From NCBI GenBank assembly GCA_026394015.1, contig JAPKZA010000018.1, forward strand, positions 1 through 52,821: a stretch of DNA of 52,821 bases, written 5' to 3'. Of the stretch, positions 6,951-31,473 are shown one piece after another; within the stretch, counting starts at the first letter, position 1; every line of letters begins with the position of its first letter. The translations under genes were made by a program, and so were the position numbers. This DNA comes from Acidobacteriota bacterium (lineage in GTDB: Bacteria > Acidobacteriota > Terriglobia > Bryobacterales > Bryobacteraceae). The notes under the pieces are model-generated. The model ran no database searches. It was not told where the DNA came from and saw nothing but the letters and a program-made list of their open reading frames with translations.

Positions 6951-6953
6951 CCC

Positions 6954-11501: not shown

Positions 11502-11520
11502 TTTGGCATTCAGCTTGCAC
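11502..11520 (+). promoter_or_regulatory. Possible sigma-54 promoter within the glycosidase 3' end
   Basis: TTTGGCATTCAGCTTGCAC has GG (11505-11506) and GC (11517-11518) 10 bases apart and shares its first 13 bases with the element at 14342. The predicted start point, 11530, is 9 nt before the glycosyltransferase ATG at 11539. It lies in coding sequence of the preceding gene, so chance is not excluded. Confidence 0.55.
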
Positions 11521-11538
11521 AACCAGAAGGAAAGACAA

Positions 11539-13702: not shown

Positions 13703-13707
13703 TCACC

Positions 13708-14313: not shown

Positions 14314-14341
14314 AAATAAAAAATAAAAACGCGCATCCCCA

Positions 14342-14360
14342 TTTGGCATTCAGCGTGCAT
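14342..14360 (+). promoter_or_regulatory. Predicted sigma-54 promoter of the FkbM methyltransferase gene
   Basis: TTTGGCATTCAGCGTGCAT: GG (14345-14346) and GC (14357-14358) are 10 bases apart. The predicted start point, 14370, is 4 nt before the ATG at 14374. An A-rich stretch (GAAAATAAAAAATAAAAA) lies between the previous stop and this box. Confidence 0.7.
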
Positions 14361-14373
14361 TACATAGATCAGA

Positions 14374-15189: not shown

Positions 15190-15207
15190 CAAACTACCAA
15201 TCGCACC

Positions 15208-15255
15208 CACAAACGGCGGCTCTTCCCGGAAAGAGCCGCCGTTTGTGTTTGTTCC
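15208..15255 (+). terminator. Rho-independent terminator
   Basis: A perfect 17-bp stem (15208-15224 with 15231-15247) closes a 6-base loop and is followed by TTTGTT. It ends the FkbM transcript and separates it from the next promoter. Confidence 0.92.
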
Positions 15256-15257
15256 AT

Positions 15258-15278
15258 GCTGTTTCGAATCAAGACAAC
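15258..15278 (+). promoter_or_regulatory. Candidate activator palindrome upstream of the export operon
   Basis: CTGTTTCGAATCAAGACAA (15259-15277) is an imperfect palindrome centred on 15268, with the same half-site spacing as the palindrome at 31453-31473 upstream of the sigma-54 regulator. It lies about 96 bp before the predicted start point at 15364. Confidence 0.6.
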
Positions 15279-15335
15279 GCCCCACCTAAAAACAACGGAG
15301 CCTCCCAAAAGTTGTTGAACACAAAGGAAATCGGC

Positions 15336-15354
15336 TTTGGCACGTGGTGTGCAT
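15336..15354 (+). promoter_or_regulatory. Predicted sigma-54 promoter of the export/co-polymerase operon
   Basis: TTTGGCACGTGGTGTGCAT contains the TGGCACG -24 consensus and TGC at -12; GG (15339-15340) and GC (15351-15352) are 10 bases apart. The predicted start point, 15364, is 3 nt before the ATG at 15367. Best match of the set. Confidence 0.75.
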
Positions 15355-15366
15355 TTCTACACTCGA

Positions 15367-16347: not shown

Positions 16348-16349
16348 CC

Positions 16350-18386
16350 ATGACCACCCATCGCCCCGGCCCCACCGCAGCCAACTCCGAAGCAGAACCC
16401 AAGTCCTCCCCCCGCTCTTTCCATCCCCTCGAAAGCCTCCGCCAACACTATCGCCTCGCCCTCGGCATCGCCCTCGCCGTCATCGTCCTCGGCCTCCCCG
16501 CCGCCTGGTGGAAGGGCCGGCCCACCTTCCGCACCGAGGGTGTGCTATTCGTCTCCCCCCGCTTCCTCCGCAACCTGGACACGGACCCGGAGCACGAACT
16601 CCAGTCCAACTCCCAATACCGCGAATTCGTCCAACAGCAGGTCCGCACCATCAATCGCTACGACATCGTCGCCAACGCCCTCCCCCTCGGCTCCCCGGAA
16701 TCGGCCATCTGGACCCTCGGCAAGGAAACGCCGCGCCGCGCTACCGACCGCCTACGCACCTCCCTCCAGATCTCCCCCGTCCCCGATACCTACCAGATCA
16801 CCGTCGCCCTCGAAGGCGAAAAAGCGGCCGGTCTCGCCGAAATCATCAACAAAGTCATGGAAAGTTACGTCCGCACCGCCCACCACGAACTGCTCTACGA
16901 CAGCGATTCCCGCCTCCGCAATCTCGAAGAGGAGAAGCAGCAGGTGCAGGCCGGCATCGACAAAATGATCGACGAACGCGCCACGCTCGCTCAGCAACTC
17001 GGCACCACCGTCTTCAGCGGCGCCATCGTCAATAGCTTCGACAAACAGCTGGGCGGCACCGTCGACGCTCTCGCCGATGCCCGCCGCCAGCGCTTCGTTG
17101 CCGAAGCCGCCGCCGCCGCGCCCGAAGCCACCAAAGCCACCGCCCTCCAAAGCGCCATGAACGACACTGGGCTCAACGGCTTCAAGGGCGCTCTCAATAC
17201 CCGCAAGGCCGAACTCCTCACCAGCATCCGCGGCCTTGGGCCCCAACACGCCGGCCGCATCGCCGCCGAAAAGGAGATTCGCGCCATAGAGCAGGAACTC
17301 GAAGCCGTTACTGCCCAGTTGCAGCAAAAACTCGCCGGCAACCTCGACACCATCCAGCGCGCCCGCCAGGCCCAGGCCACCGCCGTCGAACAGCAGCTCA
17401 CCCAGGAATCGCAGTCCGTCCGCAAGCAAACGGAGTCCTACTACCGCGGCTATCAGCGCAGCCTCGAAGTCGGCGAAGAGCTCGACCGCCTCCGCAAACG
17501 CCTCAACGCTATCGAAGTCCGCATCAGCTACCTCCGCCTGGAAAACAAAGCCCCCGGCTTCGTCCGCGTCTTCTCCCCCGCCATGACGCCGGAATTCCCC
17601 ATCACCGGTGGCCGCACCAAGCTCGGTGCCTTAGTCCTCCTCGCCGCCCTCGCCCTTGCGCTCATGGTCCCGCTCGGCATCGATTACCTGGACCCCCGCC
17701 TGCGCGCCCCCGATGAACTCCAGGTCCACCTCGGCCTGCCCATCACCGGCTGGGTCCCCATCGGACGCGATGCCGACCCCGCCCACGTCCTCCGCGCCGC
17801 CGTTTCCATCCGCCGCCAGCTCCACATGTTGAAGCACCGGGCCATCGTCGTGTCCGCGCTCGATCACGGCGGCGGCTCCACCACCCTCACCCTAGCCCTC
17901 GCCGTCGCTCTGAACCGCCTTGGCATCCGTACCCTCGTCGTCGAAGCCAACGCCCTGACCCGCGACGTCCGCTACGAAGGCCACCCCTCCGGCGCCGGAC
18001 TCACCGATTGGCTCGCCGGCCGCACGGAACAGGAACCGCCCATCGCTCCCGCCATCGCCTCTCTCCCGTCCCGCATCGCCACCGGCCTCTGTGATGACCT
18101 TCTCCCCGTCGAACGGCTAATCACCCTTCTCGATACCCAATGCCAAGACTGGGACCTTGTACTGATCGACGCCGCCCCGCTCCCCACCAGCCTCGCCACC
18201 GAAGAGTTCGTCCGCGTCTTCGGAGCCTCGCTGCTCATCGTCGATGCCGAAAAAGACAGTAAATCCAACGTCTCCGCCGCCCTCGATAAACTCGACATCC
18301 TCGCTCCCAGCGCCTTCGGCGCGATTCTCAACAAGGTTCCCAAGAAAAGGAAATCAAATGACACCCCTACTGTACTCGCTGCATAG
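16350..18386 (+). CDS. Wzz/Wzc-like polysaccharide co-polymerase with degenerate tyrosine-kinase domain
   Basis: The 678-residue inner-membrane protein has membrane helices near residues 35-55 and 430-450, with a long periplasmic coiled-coil region between (many E-Q-Q/K-Q-V-Q and E-L-E-x-L heptads, about 190-400). The cytoplasmic C-terminal domain (about 475-660) has the P-loop fold of bacterial tyrosine kinases: the Walker A position reads D-H-G-G-G-S-T-T without the essential Lys, the A' motif is V-V-E-A-N, and Walker B is L-V-L-I-D-A-A-P-L. There is no C-terminal tyrosine cluster. It therefore probably sets chain length without kinase activity. The end overlaps the next gene by 29 bp. Confidence 0.88.
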   Translation: MTTHRPGPTAANSEAEPKSSPRSFHPLESLRQHYRLALGIALAVIVLGLPAAWWKGRPTFRTEGVLFVSPRFLRNLDTDPEHELQSNSQYREFVQQQVRTINRYDIVANALPLGSPESAIWTLGKETPRRATDRLRTSLQISPVPDTYQITVALEGEKAAGLAEIINKVMESYVRTAHHELLYDSDSRLRNLEEEKQQVQAGIDKMIDERATLAQQLGTTVFSGAIVNSFDKQLGGTVDALADARRQRFVAEAAAAAPEATKATALQSAMNDTGLNGFKGALNTRKAELLTSIRGLGPQHAGRIAAEKEIRAIEQELEAVTAQLQQKLAGNLDTIQRARQAQATAVEQQLTQESQSVRKQTESYYRGYQRSLEVGEELDRLRKRLNAIEVRISYLRLENKAPGFVRVFSPAMTPEFPITGGRTKLGALVLLAALALALMVPLGIDYLDPRLRAPDELQVHLGLPITGWVPIGRDADPAHVLRAAVSIRRQLHMLKHRAIVVSALDHGGGSTTLTLALAVALNRLGIRTLVVEANALTRDVRYEGHPSGAGLTDWLAGRTEQEPPIAPAIASLPSRIATGLCDDLLPVERLITLLDTQCQDWDLVLIDAAPLPTSLATEEFVRVFGASLLIVDAEKDSKSNVSAALDKLDILAPSAFGAILNKVPKKRKSNDTPTVLAA

Positions 18387-19413
18387 CGGCAACCTCTACG
18401 GCACCGAACGCATGGCGCTCGCCACCGCCCTCGGCCTCCGCGATGAGTTTGAAACTACCTTCGTCGCCCCCGAAGGTCCCTTCCACGCCGAAGCCAGCCG
18501 CCTCGGCTTCCGCACCATCGTCTTCAAAACACCCCTCCGCTTCGCCGCCGATATTCGCCAGTTCTTCGCGAATAGCCCGCGCACCGCCGCCGCCGGCACC
18601 CGCGCCCTCCCCACCCTCGCCGCCGCCCTCTGGTCCCGCGTCTACCGCCGCCCCTGTGCCAATATCCAGGTCGTCCACGGCGGCACCGAGGAACGGCTCA
18701 GCTACGGCCGCAAACGCTGGCTGAACCGTCTCGGAACGAAACAGGTGGCTGTTTCGAACTACGTCAGGGAACGCATGCTGTTCCATGGCGCGGACCCCGC
18801 GGCCCTCTCCGTCATCGAAAACTTCCTTACCCCTGAACGCGTCGACTCCAGCCCTCGCCGCGAGCCCTTCCAAAAATCCGGCATCCGCAAAATCGTCATC
18901 GTCTCCCGCCTCGACCCCATCAAACGCATCGATCTCCTACTCGACGCTCTCGACCTCACCCCCGCCCTGCAGAACGTTCAGTTCGAAATCTACGGCACCG
19001 GCGAAGACGAACAACTCCTTCGTTCCCGAGCACTTGCGCGGAATCCCAACGTCCACTTCCTGGGCTACCATCCCGACATCCCCTTCCGTGTAAGCCAGTC
19101 CGACCTCCTCCTCCACCTCTGTCCCGAAGAGCCCTTCGGCCTCGCCATCCTCGAAGCCATGGCCGCCCACGTCCCCGTCCTAGTCCCCAATTCCGGTGGT
19201 GCCGGCGCCATCATCGACCCCGGCAAAACCGGTTTTCACTTTCGCGCCAACGACGCCTTCGATCTGGCATTCCAACTGCAATACCTACAGTACCTACCAA
19301 AGGAAACCCTGACGAAAACGGTCGAAGCAGCCACCCGCTCCCTCCGCACCCGATTCTCAGCCAACTGCGGCATCGCTCACTACCGAAAGCTCATCCACAA
19401 ATGTCTAGCCTGA
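18358..19413 (+). CDS. Glycosyltransferase family 4
   Basis: A 351-residue GT-B enzyme. The ATG at 18358 is preceded by AAAAGGAAATCAA and starts the G-N-L-Y-G-T-E-R-M-A N-terminal motif typical of GT4 proteins. The donor domain shows V-S-R-L-D-P-I-K-R-I-D, Y-G-T-G-E-D-E, N-V-H-F-L-G-Y, and C-P-E-E-P-F-G-L-A-I-L-E-A-M-A with the E-x7-E pair. It overlaps both neighbours, so it is co-translated with them. An exact inverted repeat of activator half-sites lies inside the gene at 18737-18756. Sugar specificity is unknown. Confidence 0.92.
   Translation: MTPLLYSLHSGNLYGTERMALATALGLRDEFETTFVAPEGPFHAEASRLGFRTIVFKTPLRFAADIRQFFANSPRTAAAGTRALPTLAAALWSRVYRRPCANIQVVHGGTEERLSYGRKRWLNRLGTKQVAVSNYVRERMLFHGADPAALSVIENFLTPERVDSSPRREPFQKSGIRKIVIVSRLDPIKRIDLLLDALDLTPALQNVQFEIYGTGEDEQLLRSRALARNPNVHFLGYHPDIPFRVSQSDLLLHLCPEEPFGLAILEAMAAHVPVLVPNSGGAGAIIDPGKTGFHFRANDAFDLAFQLQYLQYLPKETLTKTVEAATRSLRTRFSANCGIAHYRKLIHKCLA
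18737..18756. repeat. Perfect inverted repeat of the activator half-site inside a coding region
   Basis: CGAAACAG-GTGG-CTGTTTCG: two exact 8-base half-sites of the CTGTTTCG motif, in the opposite (everted) arrangement to the palindrome at 31453. It encodes part of a glycosyltransferase, so its regulatory meaning is open. Confidence 0.8.
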
Positions 19414-20378
19414 ATCCAACCCTATCTGTCGTCGTCATCGGGCGCAACGAAGGCGAACGCCTGCGTCGTTGCCTGACTTCCATCCGCGACAGGAACCCCA
19501 TCCGTGGTCTCGTCGAAGTCATCTACGTCGATTCCAACTCCACCGACGGCAGCCCCGCCCTCGCCACCACCTTCGGCGCCCAGGTCGTCGAACTGAACGC
19601 CGCTCGCCCCAGCGCCGCCCTTGCCCGCAACGCCGGCTGGCGCGCCGCCGCCGCCCCTTGGATCCTCTTCCTCGACGGCGATACGATTCTCCACCCGGCC
19701 TTCCCCCGTTTGGCCCTCCGCAATGCCGGTGAAGCCTCCGTCGCCGCTGTGTGGGGCCATCGGCGGGAGATTGCTCCCACTGCCAATTTCTTCCACCGCG
19801 TTCTCGATCTGGACTGGGTCTATGCCCCTGGCGTCACCCCCTTCTGCGGTGGTGACGCCCTCTTCCGCCGCGCCGCTCTCGAACAGGTCGACGGTTTCAA
19901 CGAAACCCTCATTGCCGGTGAAGAGCCTGAACTCTGCACCCGCCTCCGCGCCCGCGGCTTCCAGATCCTGCACATCGACGCTCCCATGACCGGCCACGAT
20001 CTCGCCATCACCCGCTGGGGCCAGTACTGGTGCCGCGCCACCCGCGCCGGCTACGCCTACTCCCAGATGGCCTGGCGCACCCGCGGCGAACAATTCCCGC
20101 TCTGGAGCGCCGAAGCCCGCGGCAACGTCCTCCGCGCGCTCGTCCTGCTCGCCCTCGTCACCGCCATCCCCTTCGCCCCGCTCCCGGCCATGGTCATCCT
20201 CGCCACCCTCGTCGCCCGCAGTGCCTGGCGCTCCCGCTGGAAGAGCAACAACAACTTCTCCCTCCTCTGCTACGGTGCCCACTCGCACCTCCAGCAGCTT
20301 CCCATCTTCGCGGGCCAGGTCGCTTTCTGGTGGGACCTCGCCCAGAACCGCCGCCGCGGCTTGATTGAGTACAAATGA
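19401..20378 (+). CDS. Glycosyltransferase family 2
   Basis: The 325-residue protein has a GT2 core: L-S-V-V-V-I-G-R-N-E-G-E-R-L, V-D-S-N-S-T-D-G-S, L-D-G-D-T (D-x-D), G-G-D-A-L-F-R-R and E-E-P-E-L-C-x-R-L-R. A C-terminal hydrophobic stretch (about residues 230-262) suggests membrane attachment. It overlaps the upstream GT4 gene by 13 bp and the downstream acyltransferase by 4 bp (ATGA). Confidence 0.9.
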   Translation: MSSLNPTLSVVVIGRNEGERLRRCLTSIRDRNPIRGLVEVIYVDSNSTDGSPALATTFGAQVVELNAARPSAALARNAGWRAAAAPWILFLDGDTILHPAFPRLALRNAGEASVAAVWGHRREIAPTANFFHRVLDLDWVYAPGVTPFCGGDALFRRAALEQVDGFNETLIAGEEPELCTRLRARGFQILHIDAPMTGHDLAITRWGQYWCRATRAGYAYSQMAWRTRGEQFPLWSAEARGNVLRALVLLALVTAIPFAPLPAMVILATLVARSAWRSRWKSNNNFSLLCYGAHSHLQQLPIFAGQVAFWWDLAQNRRRGLIEYK

Positions 20379-20959
20379 CACTGAAGAGCCTCCTCCTCGC
20401 CCCCGCCGTCGCCCTGGCCCGCGCCGCCCGCCCCTTCGCCGGCCTCGCCCGCCTCTGGGCATTCGCCCGGCTCCGCGCCTCCCTCCGTACCCACGTTCCC
20501 GATTCCGTTGTCGTCCTCGGCGCCCCGGAGATCCACGGCACCGCCAACATCGTCCTCGGCGAAGAGCTCTACCTCTATTGCGATCTCTACCTCGAAACAC
20601 AGGACCACGGCCGCATCGAAATCGGCCGCGGCACCGTCATCTCCCGCGGTGTCCACATCGTCTCCTTCGGGTCCATCCGTATTGGCGAAGGCACCATGAT
20701 CGGCGAGTACGCGAGCATCCGCGATGCCAATCACGCCTTTCTCGCCGACGGCCCCCTTCGTGACGCCGACCATACCGCCGAGCCCATCTGGATCGGCAAC
20801 AACGTCTGGATCGGCCGCGGCGTCACCATCCTCTCCGGCGCTCGCATCGGAGACCGTGCCGTCATCGGCGCCAACGCCGTCGTCACCCGCGACGTCGCCC
20901 CCGGCGCCATCGTCGCCGGCGTCCCGGCGCGCCCCATCATCTCCCGGAGAGCCGCATGA
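20375..20959 (+). CDS. Hexapeptide-repeat acyltransferase
   Basis: A 194-residue left-handed beta-helix acyltransferase of the WcaF/maltose-O-acetyltransferase type. The active-site region contains D-A-N-H-A-F with the catalytic His, followed by P-I-W-I-G-N-N-V-W-I-G-R-G-V-T-I-L-S-G and V-I-G-A-N-A-V-V-T-R-D-V. The N-terminal about 45 residues are basic and alanine-rich. Probable role: O-acetylation of a sugar residue. It overlaps its neighbours by 4 bp on both sides. Confidence 0.9.
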   Translation: MTLKSLLLAPAVALARAARPFAGLARLWAFARLRASLRTHVPDSVVVLGAPEIHGTANIVLGEELYLYCDLYLETQDHGRIEIGRGTVISRGVHIVSFGSIRIGEGTMIGEYASIRDANHAFLADGPLRDADHTAEPIWIGNNVWIGRGVTILSGARIGDRAVIGANAVVTRDVAPGAIVAGVPARPIISRRAA

Positions 20960-22212
20960 CCCCCCGCATTCTTCTCAGCGCCTATCAATGTGCCCCCGGC
21001 CAAGGCAGCGTCTCGCAGATCGGTTGGGAGTGGTACGCCCGCATGGCCCGCCGCGCCTCCGTCACCCTCGTCACCCACATCCGCAACAAGCCGTTTCTCG
21101 AAGCCGCCGGCACCCCGATCAACGGCTCGGAAATCATCTACATCGATACCGAATGGTTCGCCCGCAGGATGTACGGCGCCGCCCGCTTCCTCTTCCCCGG
21201 CAGCGAACACTCGGTCTTCCTCCTCTCCTCAGTCGATTTCTTCGTCTACGACCGCGCCGCCCTCCGCACCCTCGCACCCCGCAAGAGCGAATGGGATGTC
21301 GTCCACATTGTCACCCCCGTCTCTCCCTCCGCCCACAGCGTCCTCGGCCGCCTCGGCCTCCCCGTCCTGCGCGGCCCGCTCAACGGCGGCCTCCGCACCC
21401 CGCCTAACTTCCCCGAATTTATGCGCGCCGACAGCGCCTGGCTCTACTCCCTGCGCGATCTCGCCAAGCCGCTCCAGGCCGTCCTCAACACCCCGCCCTC
21501 GGCCACCCTCTACGCCAACCAGTCCACCTGGAACGCCCTCTCCCCCGCCGAACGCAAACACGCCGAGCGCCTCCCGGAAATCGCCGTTGACCCTGCCTTC
21601 TTCCCCGCCGCCCCTTTGCCCGCCAGCCCCAGCCCCACCAATCCTCTCCAGGTCCTTTTCGTCGGCCGCCTCATCCCGGCCAAAGCGCTCCCGCTGCTGT
21701 TCGAAGGCGCCCGCCGCGCACACGGCCGCGTCCCCATCGAAGTTACCGTCATCGGCGATGGCCCCATACGCCAAACCTGGGAAGCCGAATCGAAAGCCCT
21801 CCCCTATCCCGTTCACTTCCTCGGCTCCCGCAATGCCGATGAAGTCAGCGCCGCCTTTGCTGCCAGCCACGTCTTCTGCCTCCCCAGCATTCGCGAATCC
21901 GGCGGTGCCGTGTTGCTCGAAGCCATGAGCGCCGCCCGCCCCGTCATCGCCGTCGACTACGGCGGCCCCGCCGAACTGGTCAACGAATCCGTCGGCCGCC
22001 TCGTCCCGGCGGACTCCTCGGAATCGGTCGCCGCCGGCATCGCCACTGCGCTCAGCGAAGTCATCGCCCAGCCCAATAAATGGCGCCAACGCGGCCTCGC
22101 GGGCCGCCAACACGTCCTGCTCAATCACACCTGGGATCAGCGCGTCCAGCGCGGTCTCGCCGTCTGTCGCAAACTCAACAACACCGCAATTGTCCGGCAG
22201 GAGGCCGCATGA
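20956..22212 (+). CDS. Glycosyltransferase family 4
   Basis: A 418-residue GT-B protein. The N-terminus I-L-L-S-A-Y-Q-C-A-P-G-Q-G-S-V-S-Q-I-G-W-E-W is characteristic of one GT4 subgroup. It shows L-F-V-G-R-L-I-P-A-K-A, V-I-G-D-G-P, and C-L-P-S-I-R-E-S-G-G-A-V-L-L-E-A-M-S. Translationally coupled to both neighbours by ATGA overlaps. Donor sugar unknown. Confidence 0.91.
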   Translation: MTPRILLSAYQCAPGQGSVSQIGWEWYARMARRASVTLVTHIRNKPFLEAAGTPINGSEIIYIDTEWFARRMYGAARFLFPGSEHSVFLLSSVDFFVYDRAALRTLAPRKSEWDVVHIVTPVSPSAHSVLGRLGLPVLRGPLNGGLRTPPNFPEFMRADSAWLYSLRDLAKPLQAVLNTPPSATLYANQSTWNALSPAERKHAERLPEIAVDPAFFPAAPLPASPSPTNPLQVLFVGRLIPAKALPLLFEGARRAHGRVPIEVTVIGDGPIRQTWEAESKALPYPVHFLGSRNADEVSAAFAASHVFCLPSIRESGGAVLLEAMSAARPVIAVDYGGPAELVNESVGRLVPADSSESVAAGIATALSEVIAQPNKWRQRGLAGRQHVLLNHTWDQRVQRGLAVCRKLNNTAIVRQEAA

Positions 22213-23444
22213 ACTACCTACTCGTGACCCACATACCCTTTACCCGGGATCAACACGGTCAGCCTGTTGTCGATAGCCTCTGGGCCCGCGATTTGATCGG
22301 TCTCGCCAAAGCCCTTGGCCCCATCCGTGTCGCCGCTCCCGAAGTCGACCCGGCAAAAGGTCCCACCACCTGGGGCCCCAACAGCGAAGCCCTCCCGGCC
22401 TCCTCCAACATCACCCTCCGCGGGTTCCCGGAAATGAAATCCGCCCGCTCCCTTGGCGCCATGCTGAAGATTCGATCCATCCTGAAGCAGGAGGTCGCCG
22501 CCGCCGATATCGTCCACACTTCCAATTTCTTCCCGCCCTACACCTGCCTTTCCTACGCTCACGATCTCGCCGTCAAGCTCGGCAAGAAGACGCTCTTCAT
22601 CATCGCCGAAGACTTTCACGACATGCTCGCCTGGGAATGGGTCCGCCCGTCGCACGGCCTAGCACGCTGGCGTCGCGAACGCGCGCTCAACAGCATTGAC
22701 CAGCGCGCTCGCAAGACCGCCGGTTCCGCCGCGCTCACCCTCCTCCACACCCCCGCCGCCGTCGAGCGCTACCGCCTCGATGCCCGCCACTCCATGATGA
22801 TCCGCCAGCCCGGCCACGAACTCTCGCAAGTCATCCCCGAACCCGCGCTGGACGCCCGGCTGCAGGCTCTCTCCAACGGCGCTCCCCTCCGTCTCACCGC
22901 CGCTTGCCGCCACGCCGAACTGAAAGGCCTCGATCTTCTCATCCGGGCCATCGGCCTGCTCAATGACCGCGGCGTGAAAGTGGACCTCACCCTGTACGGC
23001 CAGGGCCCGGAGACCCAGCATCTCCAATTGATCGCCGTCGCCGCCGGTGTCGCCGGGCAGGTCCACATGCCGGGCAGTCTCCGCGCCGGCGAAGAACTCG
23101 ACGACGCCCTTCGCGCCTCCGACCTCTTCGTCATGCCCCACCGCACTACCGATTTCGGACGCGCCTTCTTCGACGCGATGGCCGCCGGCCTCCCCGTTCT
23201 CGCCTTCCGCACGCCCGCCAGCGCCACTACCGTCTACGATGGCCAGGACGGCTTCCTCGCCCCGCTCGATGACGTCCAGGGCCTGGCCGAACGCATCTCC
23301 TGGCTCCACGCCGAACGGCCCACCCTCGCCGCCGCCTCCCGCGCCGCCCGCCGCCGCGCCCTCGGGAATACCCGCTCGGAATGGTTCCGCATGCGCGCCA
23401 ACTGGACGCTCGCCCTCCTCGAAGAAAGCTCCCATGCCGCATAG
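22209..23444 (+). CDS. Glycosyltransferase family 4
   Basis: The start at 22209 gives a 411-residue protein beginning M-N-Y-L-L-V-T-H-I-P-F and overlaps the preceding stop by 4 bp; the site is preceded by AGGAGG. Donor-domain features are A-C-R-H-A-E-L-K-G-L-D, L-Y-G-Q-G-P-E, and M-P-H-R-T-T-D-F-G-R-A-F-F-D-A-M-A, which keeps the acidic residue near the usual E-x7-E region but with Asp. Last glycosyltransferase before the flippase. Confidence 0.88.
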   Translation: MNYLLVTHIPFTRDQHGQPVVDSLWARDLIGLAKALGPIRVAAPEVDPAKGPTTWGPNSEALPASSNITLRGFPEMKSARSLGAMLKIRSILKQEVAAADIVHTSNFFPPYTCLSYAHDLAVKLGKKTLFIIAEDFHDMLAWEWVRPSHGLARWRRERALNSIDQRARKTAGSAALTLLHTPAAVERYRLDARHSMMIRQPGHELSQVIPEPALDARLQALSNGAPLRLTAACRHAELKGLDLLIRAIGLLNDRGVKVDLTLYGQGPETQHLQLIAVAAGVAGQVHMPGSLRAGEELDDALRASDLFVMPHRTTDFGRAFFDAMAAGLPVLAFRTPASATTVYDGQDGFLAPLDDVQGLAERISWLHAERPTLAAASRAARRRALGNTRSEWFRMRANWTLALLEESSHAA

Positions 23445-24978
23445 TCGCCGCCTTCTCCAGAACGTCTCCGCCCAAGCTGGCGCCAGCGTTTTCTATCTCG
23501 CCACCCGCTTCTTCATTCCCCCCTTCGTCCTCGCTCGCGTCGGCATGGAAGCCTACGGCCTCTACGGCACGCTCTTCGTCCTGGTCGCATACTTCGGTAT
23601 GTCCGCCATCGGCTTCTCCAGCGCCTACATCAAGTACGTCGCCGAGTTCCAGGCCAATGGCGAAACCGACCGCGCCAACCGCCTTCTCTCCTCCGGCTTT
23701 ACCCTCATGAGCGCCATTGGCATCCTCGGGTTTGGCGCGTTTCTCGCCTGCTGGCCGCGCGTCGAAGCAGGGATGAAGGTCCCCGAAAATCTTCGCGCCG
23801 ACTCCCGCTCCCTCGCCTTCCTCATCATCGGCACCTTCTTCGCCTATCTCGCCCTCTCCGTTTTCCGCGACACCCTTACCGGTCTCCAGCAGATCGCCGT
23901 CATCCAACGCGTATGGATCATCTCCTTCCTGGTGGAGACCGCGCTCATCTTCGCCCTCGTCGGCAACGGCTGGGGCCTGCTGGGCCTCGGTATCAGCTTT
24001 TCCGTCCGCACCGCCATTGAACTCGCCGCCCACTACCGCCTGGCCAAGGAGCGCATCCCCTGGCTCAGCATCCGCTGGGTCCGTCCGGACCGCGACTCCC
24101 TCCGCCTCCTTCTCAACTTCGGCGGCATCGTCCAGCTCAATGCCATGCTGTCCATCTTCCTGAACTCCATCGAACGCGTCATCGCCACCCCCCTCCTCGG
24201 CCTGACCGCCTCCGGCCTGCTCGATCTTGGCAAGCGCTTCCCCTCGATGGCCACGTCCATCCCCAGCTCCTTTGCCTCCTCCGTCCTCCCCGCCGCCGCC
24301 GAACTGCATGCCAACGACGCCAACAAAGAATCCATCGCCAACCTCTACCTCCAAACCGCCCGCCTCATGAACGCCGTCTCCGGCCTGCTCTTCGCCTTCC
24401 TCGCCTGCTTCGCCACGCTCAGCCTCACCATCTGGCTCGGCAAGCTTCCCGAAGGCGCCGCCATCCTCGTCGTTCTCTTCTCGGTCAGCTCGCAGGTCCA
24501 CCTGCTCACCGGCCCTGGCACGTCCATCCTCAAAGCCATCGGCAAGCCGAGAATGGAGTTCCACTACAGCCTGTCCAACGTCGTCGTCCTCGCCGTCATC
24601 GTGCCCGTCGTCCCCCGCACGGTCACCGGCATCGCCGCCGCCTGCGTCGCCGCCACCATCCTCTCCGCCGCCTGGTTCATCGCCCGCGCCCACGCGGAAA
24701 TGGGCGTCTCTCTCCGGCGCTACGCCCTGGATGTCCTGCTCCCCGGCCTGGTCCCTTACGCCGCCGGCATGATCCTGCTACCGCTAGCCCCCGCCGCCAC
24801 CGGCCGCTGGGAATCGCTCTTCGCCCTCGCCGTCATCGGGCCAGTCTTCGTCATCCTCGCCGCCGCCGGGCTCTACGGGTTCTGCGCCAACGACGCCGAA
24901 CGGCAAACCATCCGCCACCTCGCCAACCGCCTACCGTTCTTCGGGCTCCCAGCGGAGGTTCGCCAGCCAGGTCTCTAA
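23434..24978 (+). CDS. Wzx-type lipid-linked oligosaccharide flippase (MOP superfamily)
   Basis: Polytopic membrane protein of 514 residues with 12-14 hydrophobic segments and the N-terminal pattern of polysaccharide flippases (A-S-V-F-Y-L-A-T-R-F-F-I-P-P-F-V-L, G-M-E-A-Y-G-L-Y-G). Expected role: moving the completed lipid-linked unit across the inner membrane for the polymerase at 6954-8315. It overlaps the preceding gene by 11 bp. Its 3' end overlaps the 3' end of the convergent hybrid kinase gene by 48 bp. Confidence 0.9.
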   Translation: MPHSRRLLQNVSAQAGASVFYLATRFFIPPFVLARVGMEAYGLYGTLFVLVAYFGMSAIGFSSAYIKYVAEFQANGETDRANRLLSSGFTLMSAIGILGFGAFLACWPRVEAGMKVPENLRADSRSLAFLIIGTFFAYLALSVFRDTLTGLQQIAVIQRVWIISFLVETALIFALVGNGWGLLGLGISFSVRTAIELAAHYRLAKERIPWLSIRWVRPDRDSLRLLLNFGGIVQLNAMLSIFLNSIERVIATPLLGLTASGLLDLGKRFPSMATSIPSSFASSVLPAAAELHANDANKESIANLYLQTARLMNAVSGLLFAFLACFATLSLTIWLGKLPEGAAILVVLFSVSSQVHLLTGPGTSILKAIGKPRMEFHYSLSNVVVLAVIVPVVPRTVTGIAAACVAATILSAAWFIARAHAEMGVSLRRYALDVLLPGLVPYAAGMILLPLAPAATGRWESLFALAVIGPVFVILAAAGLYGFCANDAERQTIRHLANRLPFFGLPAEVRQPGL

Positions 24979-27900
24979 CCCCGCCGCCAGCGCGTCCACT
25001 TCGTTCGCCGCGCCCGCCTTCGCACACTCCTCAATCGCCGTGCCCACTCGCGTAATCTCATCAAACCCGTACGACGATCCCGTCCCCTTCAGGTTGTGTC
25101 CCAATAGCGCCGCCTGCGCCAGCTCGCCGCTGTCTGCCGCTTTCCGGATCGATGCCGCCTGCTGCTGCACCCTACTCAGAAATCCGGGAATCAGATCCGC
25201 CAGATCCATATCCACACGAATCACCCTCTCCGCCACCTCCACCGCCGGCCCCACGAAGCCCCATCGGTCCACTACGTCCACCAGCGCCTGCGGCCGAAAT
25301 GGCTTCGTCACGTAATCGTCCATATCGGCCGAAAATGCGTGCTCCCGGTATTCCTGCATCGCGTGCGCTGTCAACGCGATGATCGGCGTCCGCTTCCAGC
25401 CGGCCTGCGCTTCATGCGCCCGAATCCGGCTGGTCGCGTCGAAGCCGCTGCCGTCCGGCAGCATCAGGTCCATCAGGATCACGTCGAACCGTTCCTTTGT
25501 CCCTACTCCCACCGCGGCGCTCACCGTCGCCGCCAGGACCACTAAGTGGCCCTGATTGACTAACACCCGGTTCGCATAGTACTGCCCTACCGGATTGTCT
25601 TCCACCAGCAGTACCCGTAACGGACGCCCCTGAACCGCCGCCGTCCGCTGCGCCCCGTCACTGGTTTCTGTCAGGGCCCCTTCGTCCTCATAGAGCCGCG
25701 AAATCGCGCGACCGATCCGCACCGGCGTCAACGGATACGCCAGCTCGCCGCTTCGCCCAGGCATCGCGTCCATCGACCGCCTGCGGGTCCCCGGGCCGGT
25801 AATCCGCAGGAATCGCGCCACTTTGCCTAGCGATGTCAACCGCGCCAGCTGCCGCAATTGCACTGCCGTTCCCCGGCATCTCTCATCGAACACGAACAGC
25901 GTCTCCGCCTCGCACTGATCGGCGAATTCCAGTGCCGCCGCCGCATCCGTGAACGTGTGAACAGCATAGCCCGCCGCGGTCATTGCCTCGTGCGACAACT
26001 CCCCCCGCTCCGGTGCCGCCAGCAACAGAATCGCCAGAATCGGCCGCTGTTCCGTGAAGACCTCCGTCACCGGTAGCGGGATGCGCAGGGAGAACCGCGA
26101 CCCCCTCCCCTCCTCCGATTCCAGCGTCAACTCCCCGCCCAACGCCTCCGACAGCAGCCGCGAAATGCTCAACCCGAGCCCCGTACCCCCGGCCAGCCGC
26201 ACCGCCGGCGCGTCCACGCGGAAGAACTTCTGAAACACTTGCCCCAGGACATGTGCCGGAATCCCGATGCCCGTGTCTTCCACACAAAAGTGCGCAGCCA
26301 CCCGCCCGCCGTCCAAATGCTCCATCGCCAGCCGGACCACAATCGAACCCCGCTCCGTAAACTTCGTCGCGTTGCTGATCAGGTTGATCAGAATCTGACG
26401 AATCCGGTTCGCATCGCCCCGCAGCCGGAAGCCGTCCCCCTGCGGGATGAAGTACAGCTGCAGTCCCTTTGCCTCGGCCCGCCCCCGCAGGGTCTCCACC
26501 GCCTGCTCCACCACCTCCATCGGGTCGAACGGGGCCGACTCGATATCCACCTGTCCGGCCTCAATCTTCGAAAAATCCAACAAATCGTTGATCAGGCCCA
26601 GTAGCGATTCCGCCCCCACCGCCACCGAATCCAGCATTTCCCGCTGATTGACATCCAGCCGCGTCGCCTTCAGCAGCTCCGTCAAACCCAGCACGGCGTT
26701 TAAGGGCGTCCGGATTTCGTGACTCATGTTCGCCAGGAAATCGCCCTTGGCCTGATTGGCGCTCTCCGCCTCCCGGATGGCCGCCTTTAACTGTGTTTCG
26801 GCCGCCTTTCGCGCCGAAATGTCCCGCAAAATCGTCGTGTAAATCCGCCGTCCGGCCTTGTGCGATAGCCCATAGGACAGCTCCAGCGGCACACGCAGAC
26901 CGTCCGTTCTTTGGCCAATCAGCTCAATCCCGAACGACGCAACCTTGCCTGTCGCCCTGGAGATCATCCGTGCCAGGATCCGGCCATATCTCGCCCGCAA
27001 CTCCTCCGGCGACCAGTCAAATATGGCCGTCCCGGCCAGCGCTCCGTCCTCGCAGCCAAAGATCCGGTGCGCCGCCGCGTTGGCGTACTCGATCCGGTAC
27101 TCCTCGTCCAGCGTCATAATGCCGTCCGACGCCGTTTCCGCCACCACCCGGTACCGCTCTTCGCTGTCCCGCAGTACTGCTTCCGCCCGCCACCTCTCTG
27201 TCACATCCCGGTGAGACCACAGCCTGCCTACCACCTGCTGTCCCACCCGCTGCGGTTGCGTATCCCGCTCCAGCACGCGCCCGTCCAGTAGGTGAATCAC
27301 ATCGGAGCCGGACTCCTCCGGGTGCTCATACAACCATTCAACCCGCCTGTCAAAATCGTCCGGCCGCGATGTCTTCCTTCGGGCCAGCGCCCGCAGCGCC
27401 CCAGGGCTGCGGTCCTCCGTTGCTCCTTTCGGAAACTTCCAGATCTCCAGTAATCGCTTGTTGACGATCAACGCCCGCCCCGTCAGGTCGGCCACCAGAA
27501 TCCCGTCCTGGGTTGCCTCCAACGTCGCGTTTAAAGTCGCCAACAGCTTGTCCCGCTCGTCCTGCTCGGCCAGCGACTGCGTCACATCCCGGTAAAGCCA
27601 CACCCGCCCCACAATCCGCTGCTTCATCCGGTGTGGGTTGGTTGTCACCTGAATTACCCTGCCATCCACCAATCGCAGGAAATCTTCGCTTGTCTGCTCC
27701 GGGTTTGCCAATAGCTCTTCCCGGCGTCTCCGCCAATCCGGTTCGTCGATTAATTGGGGGCCGACCCACTCATTGAGCGCCTGCCGGTTCGGACGTTCCA
27801 GCGACTTCGCCGGTATCTTCCACATCTCCACCCATCGCCCGTTAAAGAGCAGTTCGTTGCCCTTAATATCAGTAACTAGAATGCCCTCGTGCGTTGATTC

Positions 27901-29361
27901 AATGGTGGAGTGCAACAGCGCCGATGCGGCACCTCGCTGCGCCTCCGCCTCCCGCCGCTCTACGAACTGTCCCACCTGGTTCCCCAGTCCGCTGACCATC
28001 TCTATCAATACCGCTGAAGGTTCTTCGTCCTGCCGCGAGAAAAACTCCATCACCCCATGCACTTCCCCGCCGATCTCCACCGGAACCGCGAGCCCGCTCC
28101 GCAGTCCCGCCGCCGCCGCCTCTCGCGCACGCAGGAAATGACCTTCCTCCAGTACGCCCATCCAGTGCGGTCTCCGGCTGCTCCACACCTCAGCCAGAAG
28201 CCCATGGTCTTCCTCAAACCGCATCCGGCGGCTGGCCGTGTCAAAGTCCGATCCTCGCAGCGAGTCTACCCGCCACTGATACCGGCAAATCAACCCCCTC
28301 GCCGCCGGATCCACCCGCCACATCGCCCCGTACTCATACCCCAGTCCGTTGCAGATCTTCCCCAAAATCTGCGGCAACGCCACATCCACGTCCGTCGACT
28401 CCGCCAGAATCTTCGTCACCGAATAGGCAAGATGGCTCCGCAGCTCCCACTGCTTCCGCGCGGTGATGTCGGTGACAATCGCCATGTACCCTTCATACCC
28501 GCCATCGGCGCCCGTCAATGGATGAGCCTCTACTGTGACCCACATCTTCTTCCCGCTTTTGGTGTAGTTCAGTAGCTCGACATGAAACGAGCTGCGCTGC
28601 TCAACTTGGTGCGCTGCGTACTCCGCGGCGTGGACGTCCGTCTCGGGACCGCGCAGAACCGCGGGGCCCGTCCGGCCCTTTACCTCCGCCAGCGTGTATC
28701 CAGTCAATCGCTCGAAGCTGTCGTTCACCCACTCAATCCGGTCTTCCGCGTCGGAGATGATCACGGCGTTGATTGTCCGCGCCGCGATCATCGACAGCCG
28801 CGTCTTTTCCTTGTCCTGCTCTGCCAGTCGGATGTTGACGGCCCGCAACTCCTCCCGCTGCGACTGCAACCTTTTCGTCAGCCGCCGCAAGTCGTCCAGC
28901 GCGAGGCTCTGCGCCTGTACTACCTGCAGAAACTCGGGCATCGAATCGTGGACCGGAAAGTCGCCGATCTGCAGCCCCAGCGTTTGTATCGCGCCCACTT
29001 CCGGCAGCCAGGGAGAACAAAGAAACATCGTGCACAACTGCTCCGGCAAATCCAACATCTGCCCGCGCAGCCGCAGCTGCGCGACGTTCCGGTGCCTCAG
29101 AATGAACAGTTGGCCATGCGCCTCAGGCAGCCCGTTCCATTCCCTGTTCGACGACGGCCGCTCAATCTCAAACAGTTGGCGCACATCCACCCCCGGTATC
29201 GCCTCCGGACAGATCTTCGCTAGGGATCGACCCACGTGCACCAGCCGTAATTGCGCATCGAATGCAAGATGAAACGGAAACAGTTCCGCGATCTGATCGG
29301 GCGTCAGCTGCACGCCCGGCCCCGGGTTACCCTCTTTACCAGCGGATGATGAATTCGTCAT
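24931..29361 (-). CDS. HNOBA-PAS-GAF hybrid histidine kinase with receiver and HPt domains (H-NOX partner kinase)
   Basis: About 1476 residues. In order: an HNOBA-type domain (about 20-150; F-P-F-H-L-A-F-D...V-G-R-S-L), which in other proteins couples to H-NOX; a coiled coil (150-190); PAS (195-310); GAF (320-475); three more PAS domains (about 485-860); HisKA with S-H-E-I-R-T-P-L-N; an HATPase domain with N-A-T-K-F and G-T-G-L-G-L; a receiver-like domain lacking a clear phospho-Asp; a true receiver (V-E-D-N, L-M-D-L-M-L-P-D-G, T-K-P-F); and an HPt domain with G-H-N-L-K-G-T-G. The ATG at 29361 was preferred to the GTG three codons earlier. It overlaps the H-NOX gene by 26 bp. Likely output: phosphotransfer through HPt to the adjacent sigma-54 regulator. 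Confidence 0.92.
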   Translation of the reverse strand: MTNSSSAGKEGNPGPGVQLTPDQIAELFPFHLAFDAQLRLVHVGRSLAKICPEAIPGVDVRQLFEIERPSSNREWNGLPEAHGQLFILRHRNVAQLRLRGQMLDLPEQLCTMFLCSPWLPEVGAIQTLGLQIGDFPVHDSMPEFLQVVQAQSLALDDLRRLTKRLQSQREELRAVNIRLAEQDKEKTRLSMIAARTINAVIISDAEDRIEWVNDSFERLTGYTLAEVKGRTGPAVLRGPETDVHAAEYAAHQVEQRSSFHVELLNYTKSGKKMWVTVEAHPLTGADGGYEGYMAIVTDITARKQWELRSHLAYSVTKILAESTDVDVALPQILGKICNGLGYEYGAMWRVDPAARGLICRYQWRVDSLRGSDFDTASRRMRFEEDHGLLAEVWSSRRPHWMGVLEEGHFLRAREAAAAGLRSGLAVPVEIGGEVHGVMEFFSRQDEEPSAVLIEMVSGLGNQVGQFVERREAEAQRGAASALLHSTIESTHEGILVTDIKGNELLFNGRWVEMWKIPAKSLERPNRQALNEWVGPQLIDEPDWRRRREELLANPEQTSEDFLRLVDGRVIQVTTNPHRMKQRIVGRVWLYRDVTQSLAEQDERDKLLATLNATLEATQDGILVADLTGRALIVNKRLLEIWKFPKGATEDRSPGALRALARRKTSRPDDFDRRVEWLYEHPEESGSDVIHLLDGRVLERDTQPQRVGQQVVGRLWSHRDVTERWRAEAVLRDSEERYRVVAETASDGIMTLDEEYRIEYANAAAHRIFGCEDGALAGTAIFDWSPEELRARYGRILARMISRATGKVASFGIELIGQRTDGLRVPLELSYGLSHKAGRRIYTTILRDISARKAAETQLKAAIREAESANQAKGDFLANMSHEIRTPLNAVLGLTELLKATRLDVNQREMLDSVAVGAESLLGLINDLLDFSKIEAGQVDIESAPFDPMEVVEQAVETLRGRAEAKGLQLYFIPQGDGFRLRGDANRIRQILINLISNATKFTERGSIVVRLAMEHLDGGRVAAHFCVEDTGIGIPAHVLGQVFQKFFRVDAPAVRLAGGTGLGLSISRLLSEALGGELTLESEEGRGSRFSLRIPLPVTEVFTEQRPILAILLLAAPERGELSHEAMTAAGYAVHTFTDAAAALEFADQCEAETLFVFDERCRGTAVQLRQLARLTSLGKVARFLRITGPGTRRRSMDAMPGRSGELAYPLTPVRIGRAISRLYEDEGALTETSDGAQRTAAVQGRPLRVLLVEDNPVGQYYANRVLVNQGHLVVLAATVSAAVGVGTKERFDVILMDLMLPDGSGFDATSRIRAHEAQAGWKRTPIIALTAHAMQEYREHAFSADMDDYVTKPFRPQALVDVVDRWGFVGPAVEVAERVIRVDMDLADLIPGFLSRVQQQAASIRKAADSGELAQAALLGHNLKGTGSSYGFDEITRVGTAIEECAKAGAANEVDALAAGLETWLANLRWEPEER

Positions 29362-29878
29362 GATCGGCACCTGACGATTTGTCGGTGGCCTGGGTCACCT
29401 CAACCGCAGTCTCAAAAAGCTGGCCCAGGCCAACGATCAAACCGCGTACAAAGGGGGCTAGCCCGGCTCGATGCGAACGATAATGCAAACGCAGCGAGTG
29501 TTCCTCCACGTCACTACAGGCAAACTCCGGCGGCTGCAGATGCGGGAAGATCATGCTCAGCCGCGCATGGAAATTTGGCAGATTCACCAGGAACTCCCGA
29601 AACGTGGTCCCGCTTGACGCCATCAGGTCCCCATACCCTTTTTGCGCCGTCTGCATTACCCAGTGAACCCCGAACGCCTCCAGGATCTTCTCGGCTGGTA
29701 CGCCCAATTCCGCGCTCGCCGCTCCCACCAGTCCGTAGGTCAGCGAATCGTCGTACCCCTCATTGCTGACAAAGACTTCCACGTCGACGCCCGCGCGCTC
29801 CTTGATCCGCTCCCACACCGCCTCGCCGTGGCCGGATATGACCATCTCTTCAATCGCCCGATTTACCATTCCGTACAT
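29336..29878 (-). CDS. H-NOX haem nitric-oxide sensor protein
   Basis: A stand-alone 180-residue H-NOX domain: M-Y-G-M-V-N at the start, the proximal haem ligand His104 in N-F-H-A-R, and the haem-propionate motif Y-x-S-x-R at Y133, S135 and R137. The position five residues after R137, which is a hydrogen-bonding Tyr in O2-binding H-NOX proteins, is Pro here, so NO rather than O2 is the expected ligand. A good ribosome site (AGGAGG, overlapping the stop of the regulator) lies 8 bp before the ATG. It sits between its regulator and its HNOBA kinase in one operon. Known H-NOX proteins inhibit or activate such kinases on NO binding. Confidence 0.95.
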   Translation of the reverse strand: MYGMVNRAIEEMVISGHGEAVWERIKERAGVDVEVFVSNEGYDDSLTYGLVGAASAELGVPAEKILEAFGVHWVMQTAQKGYGDLMASSGTTFREFLVNLPNFHARLSMIFPHLQPPEFACSDVEEHSLRLHYRSHRAGLAPFVRGLIVGLGQLFETAVEVTQATDKSSGADHDEFIIRW

Positions 29879-29890
29879 GCCGTTCGCCTC

Positions 29891-31294
29891 CTATGCCCCG
29901 CCCGACTTGCGTAGCTCATCAATCTGACCTTCCAGGTCGAACGTCCGCAGCATCCGATAAAACCGCGTGCGGCCGATATTCAACTCCCGCATCGCGGCCG
30001 ATGCGTTCCCCTCGTGCTTCTGCAGCGCAGCCACAAGCAGCCGTTTCGACGCGTCTTCCAGCGTGCCGCCATCGGCCACCGCTTCGGCCTGAATTGCCGC
30101 TGCAGCAGCCGGCGTGGCTCGCAACCGGTCCGGCAGGTCCACCGCGTCAATCTCTTCTCCATTGGCCACAACCATCGCCCGCTGGATCACGTTCTGCAAC
30201 TCCCGTACGTTGCCCGGCCAGTCATGCGCCAGCATTACTCCTAGAGCGGCCGGCCTCATCCCCGTCACCCGCGGGTTAATCGTGTCCCGGTGATGCCGAA
30301 TAAACAGTTGCGCCAGCACCGGGATGTCTTCCTTGCGTCGCCGCAGCGGCGGCAGTTCCAGCTCAAACACCGCCAGACGGAAGAATAAATCCTCCCGGAA
30401 CCGTCCGGCCCGGACGTCGTCGGCCAGATTCCGGTGCGTCGCCGTAATCAGCCGGAAATCCGAACGGATCATGGCCGACCCGCCCAGCCGCTGAAAGCTT
30501 CTTTCCTGTAAAACCCGTAACAGCTTCGCCTGCACATTGGCCGACAGCTCGCCAATTTCGTCCAGAAAAATGGTGCCCCGATTTGCCTCTTCAAAACGGC
30601 CCGCCCGCCGCGTGGCCGCCCCCGTAAAGGCGCCCTTCTCGTGCCCGAACAGTTCGCTCTCCAACAGATTCTCCGGAATCGCCGCCGAATTCACCGCGAT
30701 GAACGGACCCTTACTCCGGCTGCTCGACTGGTGCAGAGCCCGCGCAACCAACTCTTTCCCAGTGCCGCTCTCGCCGTGAATGACAACAGACACATCCGTC
30801 ACCGCCAGCCGGTCCAACTGCCGGAAAACCGCCTTCATCGCCGACGAGTTTCCGGCAATTCCCGGATATCCGCGCCCCTCCACCTCGCGTTCCAATTGGG
30901 TGACCCGTTGTGCCATTCGCCCATGCGCGATGGCGTTCCTGATCGTGGTCAGAAACTTGGTGTTGTCGAACGGTTTCGTCAGATAGTCATGCGCGCCCAG
31001 CTTCATCGCCTGCACGGCGGTCCCCGCTGAATCGTCCGCCGTCAGGACAACTACAGGCAACACCGGGAACCGCTCCCGGATCCGTTCCAGTGTCTCCAGC
31101 CCACTCAGCCCTGGCATGTTCATGTCCAGGCAAATCGCCTCCGGCATGTCCTCCGACAAAGCCTCAAGACATTCGGCGCCGCCGTCAAATCCAAATGCTT
31201 CGTAGCCCTCGCGCTTCAGCCAACGCTCCACTAACGCGCGCATCGCCTCGTCATCGTCGACCACAAAAATAAGGTTCTCCGATTCACTCGTCAT
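29891..31294 (-). CDS. Sigma-54-dependent response regulator (NtrC family)
   Basis: A 467-residue enhancer-binding protein: receiver domain (residues about 8-120; V-D-D-D-E, phospho-Asp in C-L-D-M-N-M-P, T-K-P-F), AAA+ domain (about 145-380) with Walker A G-E-S-G-T-G-K-E, the sigma-54 contact motif G-A-F-T-G-A, Walker B I-F-L-D-E-I-G-E, and a Fis-type helix-turn-helix at the end (A-S-A-A-M-R-E-L-N-I-G-R-T-R-F-Y-R-M-L). First gene of the H-NOX operon. The start at ATG 31294 is preferred; a GTG 18 bp upstream is possible. Upstream are a sigma-54 promoter and a near-perfect palindrome, so autoregulation is likely, and similar sites lie before the polysaccharide genes. Confidence 0.94.
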   Translation of the reverse strand: MTSESENLIFVVDDDEAMRALVERWLKREGYEAFGFDGGAECLEALSEDMPEAICLDMNMPGLSGLETLERIRERFPVLPVVVLTADDSAGTAVQAMKLGAHDYLTKPFDNTKFLTTIRNAIAHGRMAQRVTQLEREVEGRGYPGIAGNSSAMKAVFRQLDRLAVTDVSVVIHGESGTGKELVARALHQSSSRSKGPFIAVNSAAIPENLLESELFGHEKGAFTGAATRRAGRFEEANRGTIFLDEIGELSANVQAKLLRVLQERSFQRLGGSAMIRSDFRLITATHRNLADDVRAGRFREDLFFRLAVFELELPPLRRRKEDIPVLAQLFIRHHRDTINPRVTGMRPAALGVMLAHDWPGNVRELQNVIQRAMVVANGEEIDAVDLPDRLRATPAAAAAIQAEAVADGGTLEDASKRLLVAALQKHEGNASAAMRELNIGRTRFYRMLRTFDLEGQIDELRKSGGA

Positions 31295-31355
31295 CTGTGG
31301 ATATGGTGGCACAAGTCAGGTCGATGAGAATGCTCCGGCAGGTCCCACTCCTTTC

Positions 31356-31374
31356 CATGCAAGCCAATCGCCAA
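31356..31374 (-). promoter_or_regulatory. Predicted sigma-54 promoter of the H-NOX signalling operon
   Basis: On the minus strand: TTGGCGATTGGCTTGCATG, with GG and GC 10 bases apart and a full TTGCA -12 box. The predicted start point is near 31347, leaving a leader of about 53 nt to the ATG at 31294. Confidence 0.68.
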
Positions 31375-31452
31375 CTCGCCACGCCTGAATTCGTCCTATT
31401 TCGTTCTCGTTAGCCGCAAGAGCCGCTCAAAGCGGAACACTGTTCTGTTTTG

Positions 31453-31473
31453 GCTGTATCGATTCGAAACAGC
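31453..31473. promoter_or_regulatory. Palindromic activator site of the sigma-54 regulator
   Basis: CTGTATCGATTCGAAACAG plus one flanking G/C pair forms a 21-bp palindrome with a single mismatched pair, centred on 31463, about 116 bp before the predicted start point of the regulator's own operon. Half-sites of the same sequence recur at 3529, 3560, 8321, 14220 and 15259. Confidence 0.7.

Follow-up and report, generated by a model that had tools for sequence, protein, structure and literature searches.

A candidate nitric oxide-responsive phosphorelay beside a surface polysaccharide locus in an acidobacterium, and the putative activator sites that suggest a link between them

Does an operon coding for a putative nitric oxide (NO) sensor control the surface polysaccharide genes next to which it lies? 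The question is raised by the window studied here, a whole contig of 52,821 nucleotides (JAPKZA010000018.1; G000:C436 in our numbering) in the 7.9-Mb, 574-contig genome of a Bryobacteraceae member of the Acidobacteriota, where genes for an NtrC-type regulator (REG), an H-NOX protein and a hybrid histidine kinase run along the minus strand beside a polysaccharide locus. A preliminary description of this DNA had taken the adjacent polysaccharide genes for the targets of the operon, and that proposal finds strong support in the sequence evidence below: an upstream activating sequence (UAS) shared by both sets of promoters, adjoining sigma-54-like sites, conservation of the block, co-occurrence of its parts among genomes, and a relative in which the flippase, REG, H-NOX and kinase genes run together. 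Taken as sequence evidence, this suggests that the operon switches the neighbouring surface polysaccharide genes. Genomes are numbered G and H-NOX loci L (L031 belongs to G396, L034 to G399 and L120 to G400); the H-NOX proteins of G396, G397, G399 and G417 are 94%, 86%, 68% and 66% identical to the window protein, respectively.

Because only 12 bp separate REG from the H-NOX gene, and the H-NOX and kinase genes overlap by 26 bp, the three genes most likely form one operon. Of the 35 H-NOX loci inspected, the window counted, 7 show the order REG, H-NOX, kinase (a contig end truncates one of the seven kinases, and an additional HPt gene interrupts one locus), and the order is present again in G400 and G417. 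Since the gene order is kept across other loci, the content of the operon is not a matter of chance open reading frames (ORFs), and coordinates and Pfam matches agree with the gene content first described (an NtrC-type regulator, a stand-alone H-NOX and an HNOBA kinase with receiver and HPt, all on the minus strand).

REG matches Response_reg, Sigma54_activat (2.1e-70), AAA_lid_14 and HTH_8 in Pfam, and the phospho-Asp of its receiver, Walker A, GAFTGA and Fis-type helix-turn-helix are all present. With a phospho-Asp receiver, a GAFTGA-bearing AAA+ domain and a Fis-type helix-turn-helix, REG is by its sequence an NtrC-type sigma-54 activator. Against the curated equivalogs considered (NtrC, the PEP-CTERM regulator, NorR and LuxO, which is of sigma-54 type) no cut-off was passed among the best 25 of 113 matches, NCBIfam ntrC coming closest with 459.2 vs 558.6. 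Assignment as a PEP-CTERM-type regulator was rejected, as TIGR02915 gave 396.2 bits, below its cut-off of 502.6. In G396, REG (L031 8615-9988) lacks about 16 receiver residues, including the conserved Lys region.

The H-NOX protein passes the curated cut-off of Pfam HNOB (168.6 bits against 25.5; 1.4e-49). Its closest relative among solved chains is Nostoc Alr2278, followed by the beta-1 subunit of soluble guanylate cyclase (sGC), and the alignment to Alr2278 covers its full length. His104 and the Y-S-R motif (Y133, S135, R137), already pointed out in the preliminary description, are kept there, and the Alr2278 His aligned to His104 is the one that we take to be the haem ligand. H-NOX matches are present in 28 of 396 genomes of the phylum. 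The own genome holds a second one (L059, G000:C131:64984-65466), 58% identical, and the gene after it codes for a further hybrid kinase with HNOBA, receiver and HPt; a sigma-54 activator was looked for within 7 kb of it and none was found.

In the kinase, Pfam recognises HNOBA (1.2e-25), PAS/GAF/PAS, HisKA, HATPase_c, Response_reg (1253-1367) and Hpt (1397-1473), and a reading of the translation by eye finds the H, N and G boxes, the receiver Asp and the HPt motif HNLKG. An N-terminal HNOBA, a kinase core, a receiver and an HPt, each with its catalytic residues, make it by sequence an H-NOX-associated HNOBA hybrid kinase. Residues 15-132 match the solved histidine-kinase domain 2p04 (1.8e-17), and residues 19-187, including the stretch after HNOBA, match sGC beta-1 206-381 (2.6e-15). 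Among solved structures the two sensory parts are thus nearest to an Alr2278-type H-NOX and to 2p04, both from Nostoc. A PF24820 sensor match is below threshold. Between HATPase and the true receiver, residues of about 1104-1245 have no Pfam match and look by eye like a degenerate receiver.

These parts are likely to make up an NO-responsive phosphorelay, encoded at one locus and controlling a local sigma-54 regulon. To judge from the conserved residues, the H-NOX would bind NO at its haem and act on the HNOBA/coiled-coil front of the kinase. As in the families concerned, phosphate would pass from the kinase His to the internal receiver, to the kinase's own HPt and on to REG. Phosphorylated REG would then bind the UAS, STGTTTCGNWYCRWGACRG, copies of which are seen in the DNA, and activate sigma-54 promoters, both that of its own operon and those in the polysaccharide locus; RpoN is encoded in the genome.

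That the signal is NO fits with the retention of His104 and YxSxR, and in the alignment to Alr2278 Phe143 stands at the position that we take to be the distal Tyr site of O2-binding H-NOX. A sensor of carbon monoxide, redox state or haem status is an improbable alternative on these residues, although H-NOX proteins can respond to oxidation (PMC12329717, PMC7108781). The sign of the NO effect is the weakest step. Following HqsK and HahK of Vibrio, NO would lower kinase activity and therefore polysaccharide expression, which is the most likely direction, with a probability only a little above even. V. parahaemolyticus HqsK autophosphorylates less in the presence of NO-bound H-NOX (PMC6759604), and HahK is inhibited by HnoX (PMC12369376), a comparison made regardless of HNOBA content. 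The same circuit with the opposite sign, in which NO would stimulate the kinase and induce the polysaccharide, has to be considered because H-NOX, HNOBA and coiled coil together resemble an sGC split over two proteins: sGC beta-1 comes second to Alr2278 as relative of the H-NOX, and HNOBA with the following helix matches sGC beta-1. In addition, 50 nM NO raised biofilm in V. harveyi (PMC3759921). We regard this opposite sign as possible but rather doubtful.

One link to the polysaccharide genes is the UAS. In the window a sigma-54 element stands ahead of REG with a palindrome 80 bp upstream of it, and both recur ahead of REG in L031, L032 and L033; in L034 the palindrome is weaker (3 mismatches), the REG promoter of L037 has neither, and that of L061 has a sigma-54-like TGGN9TGC and no UAS. 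A first pattern, CTGTWTCGAWWCGAWACAG, was derived solely from the REG promoters. With as many as 3 mismatches allowed it found, besides the REG site, two others in the window, at 15259 before wza and at 18726 in a glycosyltransferase gene, and in this blind test two sites were reached in 0 of 1000 window shuffles. A form relaxed at two positions, made after these sites had been seen and hence not blind, gave 16 sites in the genome against 12 for the reversed control; 2 of the 15 non-REG sites fell in the 25-kb polysaccharide locus, where 0.05 were expected.

The refined consensus STGTTTCGNWYCRWGACRG came from aligned polysaccharide promoters of four genomes. At up to one mismatch it has five sites in the own genome, all within the operon/polysaccharide block (17 further two-mismatch rows outside the block were left aside). 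Across eight other genomes, 15 of 17 sites lie in or beside the operon or its polysaccharide loci (G396 4/5, G397 4/4, G398 1/1, G399 3/4, G400 2/2, G401 1/1; no sites in G402 and G171), and the reversed pattern gave two sites as control. The G398 site is at the STAS-promoter position, on a contig that stops ahead of the gene; the G401 site, ahead of a REG fragment, had been seen earlier in the REG-promoter comparison. For one-mismatch sites in G399:C22 and G396:C265, neither a strict sigma-54-like site within 600 bp nor a block gene was found. In the genomes unseen when the consensus was made, all such sites fall at the operon or its polysaccharide loci (6/6 in total: 2/2 in G400 and 4/4 in the rearranged locus of G417). 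Fifteen of the 19 H-NOX-free family genomes together held 8 sites, with 6 for the reversed control, and this background predicts 0.003 sites per 31-kb block. A UAS-like pair in L034 (18765, 18798) was dropped, being inside a glycosyltransferase gene by its coordinates.

Each of the seven window UAS copies with up to two mismatches is accompanied, at a distance of 48-520 bp and in the expected direction, by a sigma-54-like site that keeps GG and GC; in 200 shuffles the means were 0.16 UAS sites and 0.015 paired sites. The predicted targets are the STAS gene (divergently the nucleotide-sugar genes), GT4a, GT2, FkbM, wza, GT2c and REG itself (GT, glycosyltransferase), so that putative activator sites and sigma-54 promoters lie inside the polysaccharide locus, as in a syp-type circuit. 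In G400 a sigma-54-like site is near both UAS copies; in G417 three of four UAS copies are followed by one, and a two-mismatch UAS before wza also has one. Computed from the sigma-54 elements, the predicted starts fall 2-8 nt ahead of the ATG at four window promoters (3684-3719, 8382-8411, 14343-14374 and 15337-15367), and those four messages would be nearly leaderless; the spacing from element to start is similar for FkbM and GT4a in G399 and G417.

Several observations weigh against this interpretation. The consensus was drawn by eye from the window, G396, G397, G399 and the L033 REG promoter, and is partly circular for those four genomes; the five sites in the own genome were all known beforehand, so that the new information from that genome is confined to the lack of sites elsewhere. 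Sigma-54-like sites on their own are not in excess with two consensus forms (21 vs 15.8, sd 4.2; 22 vs 21.0), only with the loose TGGN9TGCW (21 vs 10.6 expected), and were therefore used only jointly with UAS and relatives. The UAS copies at 10988 and 18726 are within coding sequence, about 500 bp from their promoters. G399 lacks a UAS (up to 3 mismatches within 650 bp, a range that leaves out the GT2c UAS of all four genomes and the GT2 UAS of G396 and G397, both of which are nonetheless present) at wza, GT4a, GT2 and REG, and lacks a sigma-54 site at wza; FkbM of G397 has neither a UAS nor a good sigma-54 site. In G417 the flippase UAS has no sigma-54-like site nearby (the best has 6 mismatches), and the sugar transferase gene is preceded by a perfect sigma-54 site with no UAS better than 4 mismatches. 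Moreover, G402 and G171 keep REG, H-NOX, kinase and the recognition helix and have no UAS at up to one mismatch; at up to two, their sites are scattered (20 and 7 rows vs 6 and 7 reversed-control rows).

Since the own genome encodes 17 strong sigma-54 activator domains (E < 1e-60), another activator could bind the UAS, with the H-NOX operon and the polysaccharide genes both among its targets. One candidate is 2.4 kb upstream at 33709-35058, in a second pair of NtrC-type regulator and histidine kinase genes (33709-36527), and the G402 and G171 result would suit this view. However, REG is the sole activator in the conserved block: the pair has no counterpart, and there is no second activator, within 7 kb of H-NOX in L031 and L034 (the G397 contig stops 1.8 kb past REG). 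There is also a UAS copy ahead of the REG gene itself, which in G417 comes after the flippase gene on the same strand. We therefore think it unlikely that the UAS belongs to an activator other than REG.

Table 1. Positions of the operon, its promoter elements and the polysaccharide locus in the window.
Feature	Position	Strand	Remarks
Polysaccharide locus	52..24978	.
Sigma-54-like element facing nucleotide-sugar genes	3467..3483	-	divergent from STAS; 77 bp from 3560 UAS; also in G396, G397
UAS upstream of STAS gene	3560..3578	+	perfect match to consensus; kept in G396, G397, G399
Sigma-54-like element of STAS/sugar-transferase genes	3684..3700	+
Single-domain STAS protein	3719..4033	+	first gene of rightward polysaccharide locus
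UAS upstream of GT4 gene at 8411	8316..8334	-	2 mismatches
Sigma-54-like element upstream of GT4 gene at 8411	8382..8398	+
Weak UAS in coding region	10988..11006	-	2 mismatches; 497 bp upstream of 11503
Sigma-54-like element before GT2 gene at ~11564	11503..11519	+
UAS upstream of FkbM methyltransferase gene	14219..14237	+	1 mismatch
Sigma-54-like element of FkbM gene	14343..14359	+
UAS upstream of Wza-type export gene	15259..15277	+	1 mismatch
Sigma-54 element of Wza-type gene	15337..15353	+	TTGGCACGTGGTGTGCA
Wza-type polysaccharide export protein	15367..16347	+	Poly_export, SLBB
Wzz/Wzc-like ORF	16332-18386		assigned by inspection; no Pfam match
UAS inside GT4 gene 18244-19413	18726..18744	-	perfect, also in G396, G397, G399; 1 mismatch in G417
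Sigma-54-like element before GT2 gene at 19401	19264..19280	+	520 bp downstream of 18726 UAS
Flippase	23437-24978
Hybrid kinase	24931..29361	-	ATG at 29361, ORF opens at 29370; HNOBA - PAS/GAF/PAS - HisKA - HATPase - receiver - HPt
H-NOX, stand-alone	29336..29878	-	His104, Y133-x-S135-x-R137
REG, NtrC-type response regulator	29891..31294	-	ATG at 31294; receiver, GAFTGA-bearing AAA+ sigma-54 domain, Fis-type helix-turn-helix
Sigma-54 -24/-12 element of REG operon	31358..31374	-	TTGGCGATTGGCTTGCA; also in L031-L034
UAS palindrome upstream of REG	31454..31472	-	CTGTTTCGAATCGATACAG

The association of operon and locus extends beyond the window. The operon and nearly the whole polysaccharide block are found in the same order in G396, G397 and G399, largely gene by gene; the exceptions are FkbM, without a match in G396, and metphos and GDPman, for which the G397 stretch, its next ORF being only partial, gave no match. 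In G400 one contig carries the genes for flippase, kinase, H-NOX and REG side by side, and a different contig has other polysaccharide genes. That locus (L120 9205-12590) has an additional PAS-kinase-type ORF and another gene ahead of REG, and a perfect UAS lies between these extra genes and a divergent membrane-protein-like ORF with a sigma-54-like element of its own. G417 has its polysaccharide genes in a different arrangement; there the genes for flippase, REG, H-NOX and kinase follow directly upon one another on a single strand. In a set of 21 family genomes that counts the own one, H-NOX (E ≤ 0.001) and flippase (E ≤ 1e-60) occur in the same two genomes, and the other 19, one of the same genus among them, have neither. 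G171 carries REG, H-NOX and kinase as well, and in G401 no flippase orthologue was found.

The two sets of genes could be mere neighbours kept together by inherited synteny, with the operon acting elsewhere, for example on cyclic di-GMP. In the window they are convergent, the 3' ends of flippase and kinase genes overlapping (24931-24978), and G402, which also counts against the preferred interpretation, carries REG, H-NOX and kinase without a flippase orthologue. The shared UAS, the co-occurrence and the G417 locus, rearranged yet still linked, argue otherwise, and we find mere neighbourhood highly improbable. An output through cyclic di-GMP was rejected, as no GGDEF or EAL domain was found in the 35 + 7 window ORFs scanned, which are part of the window ORFs, and Pfam matches none in the operon genes. 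A local sigma-54 regulon under REG remains our preferred explanation.

The polysaccharide locus itself comprises nucleotide diphosphate-sugar genes and genes for an initiating sugar transferase, a WecG-type enzyme, a Wzy_C protein, many glycosyltransferases and hexapeptide transferases, together with the STAS gene, the Wza-type exporter, the Wzz/Wzc-like ORF and the flippase. A glycosidase-like gene from 9652 (no Pfam match) changes frame at about 10960 in the window and apparently also in G396; it is a single frame in G397 and G399, and assembly error or decay are candidate causes of the change in the window. Further along the window, an RND-type efflux gene (ACR_tran) is split into overlapping ORFs in different frames (40508-41722 and 41605-43470). 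Just upstream of the REG promoter, 31860-32528 has a weak, sub-threshold match to the integrase core rve_3, with fragments in G396 and G397 too, and is perhaps an insertion-element scar at the edge of the block.

How new is such a circuit? The preliminary description knew of no described system of exactly this build. This fails as to the logic, because the V. fischeri pathway HnoX-HahK-SypF/LuxU-SypG-syp works the same way; as to the exact build it holds, within the reach of our literature search. HnoX-HahK feeds SypG, the sigma-54 activator of the syp locus, through the HPt of SypF or LuxU (PMC12369376, PMC10804989), SypG sites are present at four syp promoters (PMC10804989), and the first syp gene encodes the STAS protein SypA (PMC4517449). 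In both systems H-NOX and hybrid kinase share an operon, the path includes an HPt and a sigma-54 activator, and a polysaccharide locus headed by a STAS gene holds multiple sigma-54 promoters with activator sites (predicted ones here). In V. fischeri, however, the HPt resides in SypF or LuxU and the hnoX-hahK operon is next to VF_A0070, whereas here a single operon adjoining the locus encodes activator, sensor and HPt-bearing kinase, and a UAS copy stands in the promoter of the activator gene itself. The window UAS also differs from that of SypG, TTCTCANNNTGMDWN (PMC10162802), the two being compared as sequences and the SypG motif not itself scanned for.

In V. harveyi and V. parahaemolyticus, H-NOX, the hybrid kinase HqsK, the HPt protein LuxU and the response regulator LuxO form a similar chain, but the HPt is stand-alone and shared with quorum sensing, and the output goes via small RNAs (PMC6759604, PMC3759921). 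The HnoK-HnoC pathway of Shewanella oneidensis likewise has an H-NOX acting on a transcription factor with its own regulon, yet HnoC is a repressor relieved by phosphorylation (PMC8738867). New here are the phylum, the compact one-locus build with an apparently autoregulated operon, a UAS of another sequence, and an HPt carried by the sGC-like HNOBA kinase itself. In the open-access library searched we found no paper joining the words Acidobacteria and H-NOX, and no report of the operon or the polysaccharide locus.

There is about an even chance that the locus represents a self-contained NO-to-polysaccharide module of the Acidobacteriota. Such a module would join an sGC-like two-protein NO receptor to a full phosphorelay onto its own sigma-54 activator, with a dedicated regulon of about seven promoters, its own included, a UAS matched to no described activator and several near-leaderless transcripts. 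It would be analogous to syp with other parts, and gained or lost together with its polysaccharide locus within the family. In the squid-symbiont Vibrio the parts are scattered and also serve quorum sensing; the present locus would realise this logic in another phylum, compactly and with a clear DNA motif. Three purified proteins and one reporter would therefore be enough to test the pathway and to find in which direction NO acts on an sGC-like HNOBA kinase. Among bacteria for which only assemblies exist, the UAS could also help to locate NO-controlled polysaccharide loci by sequence.

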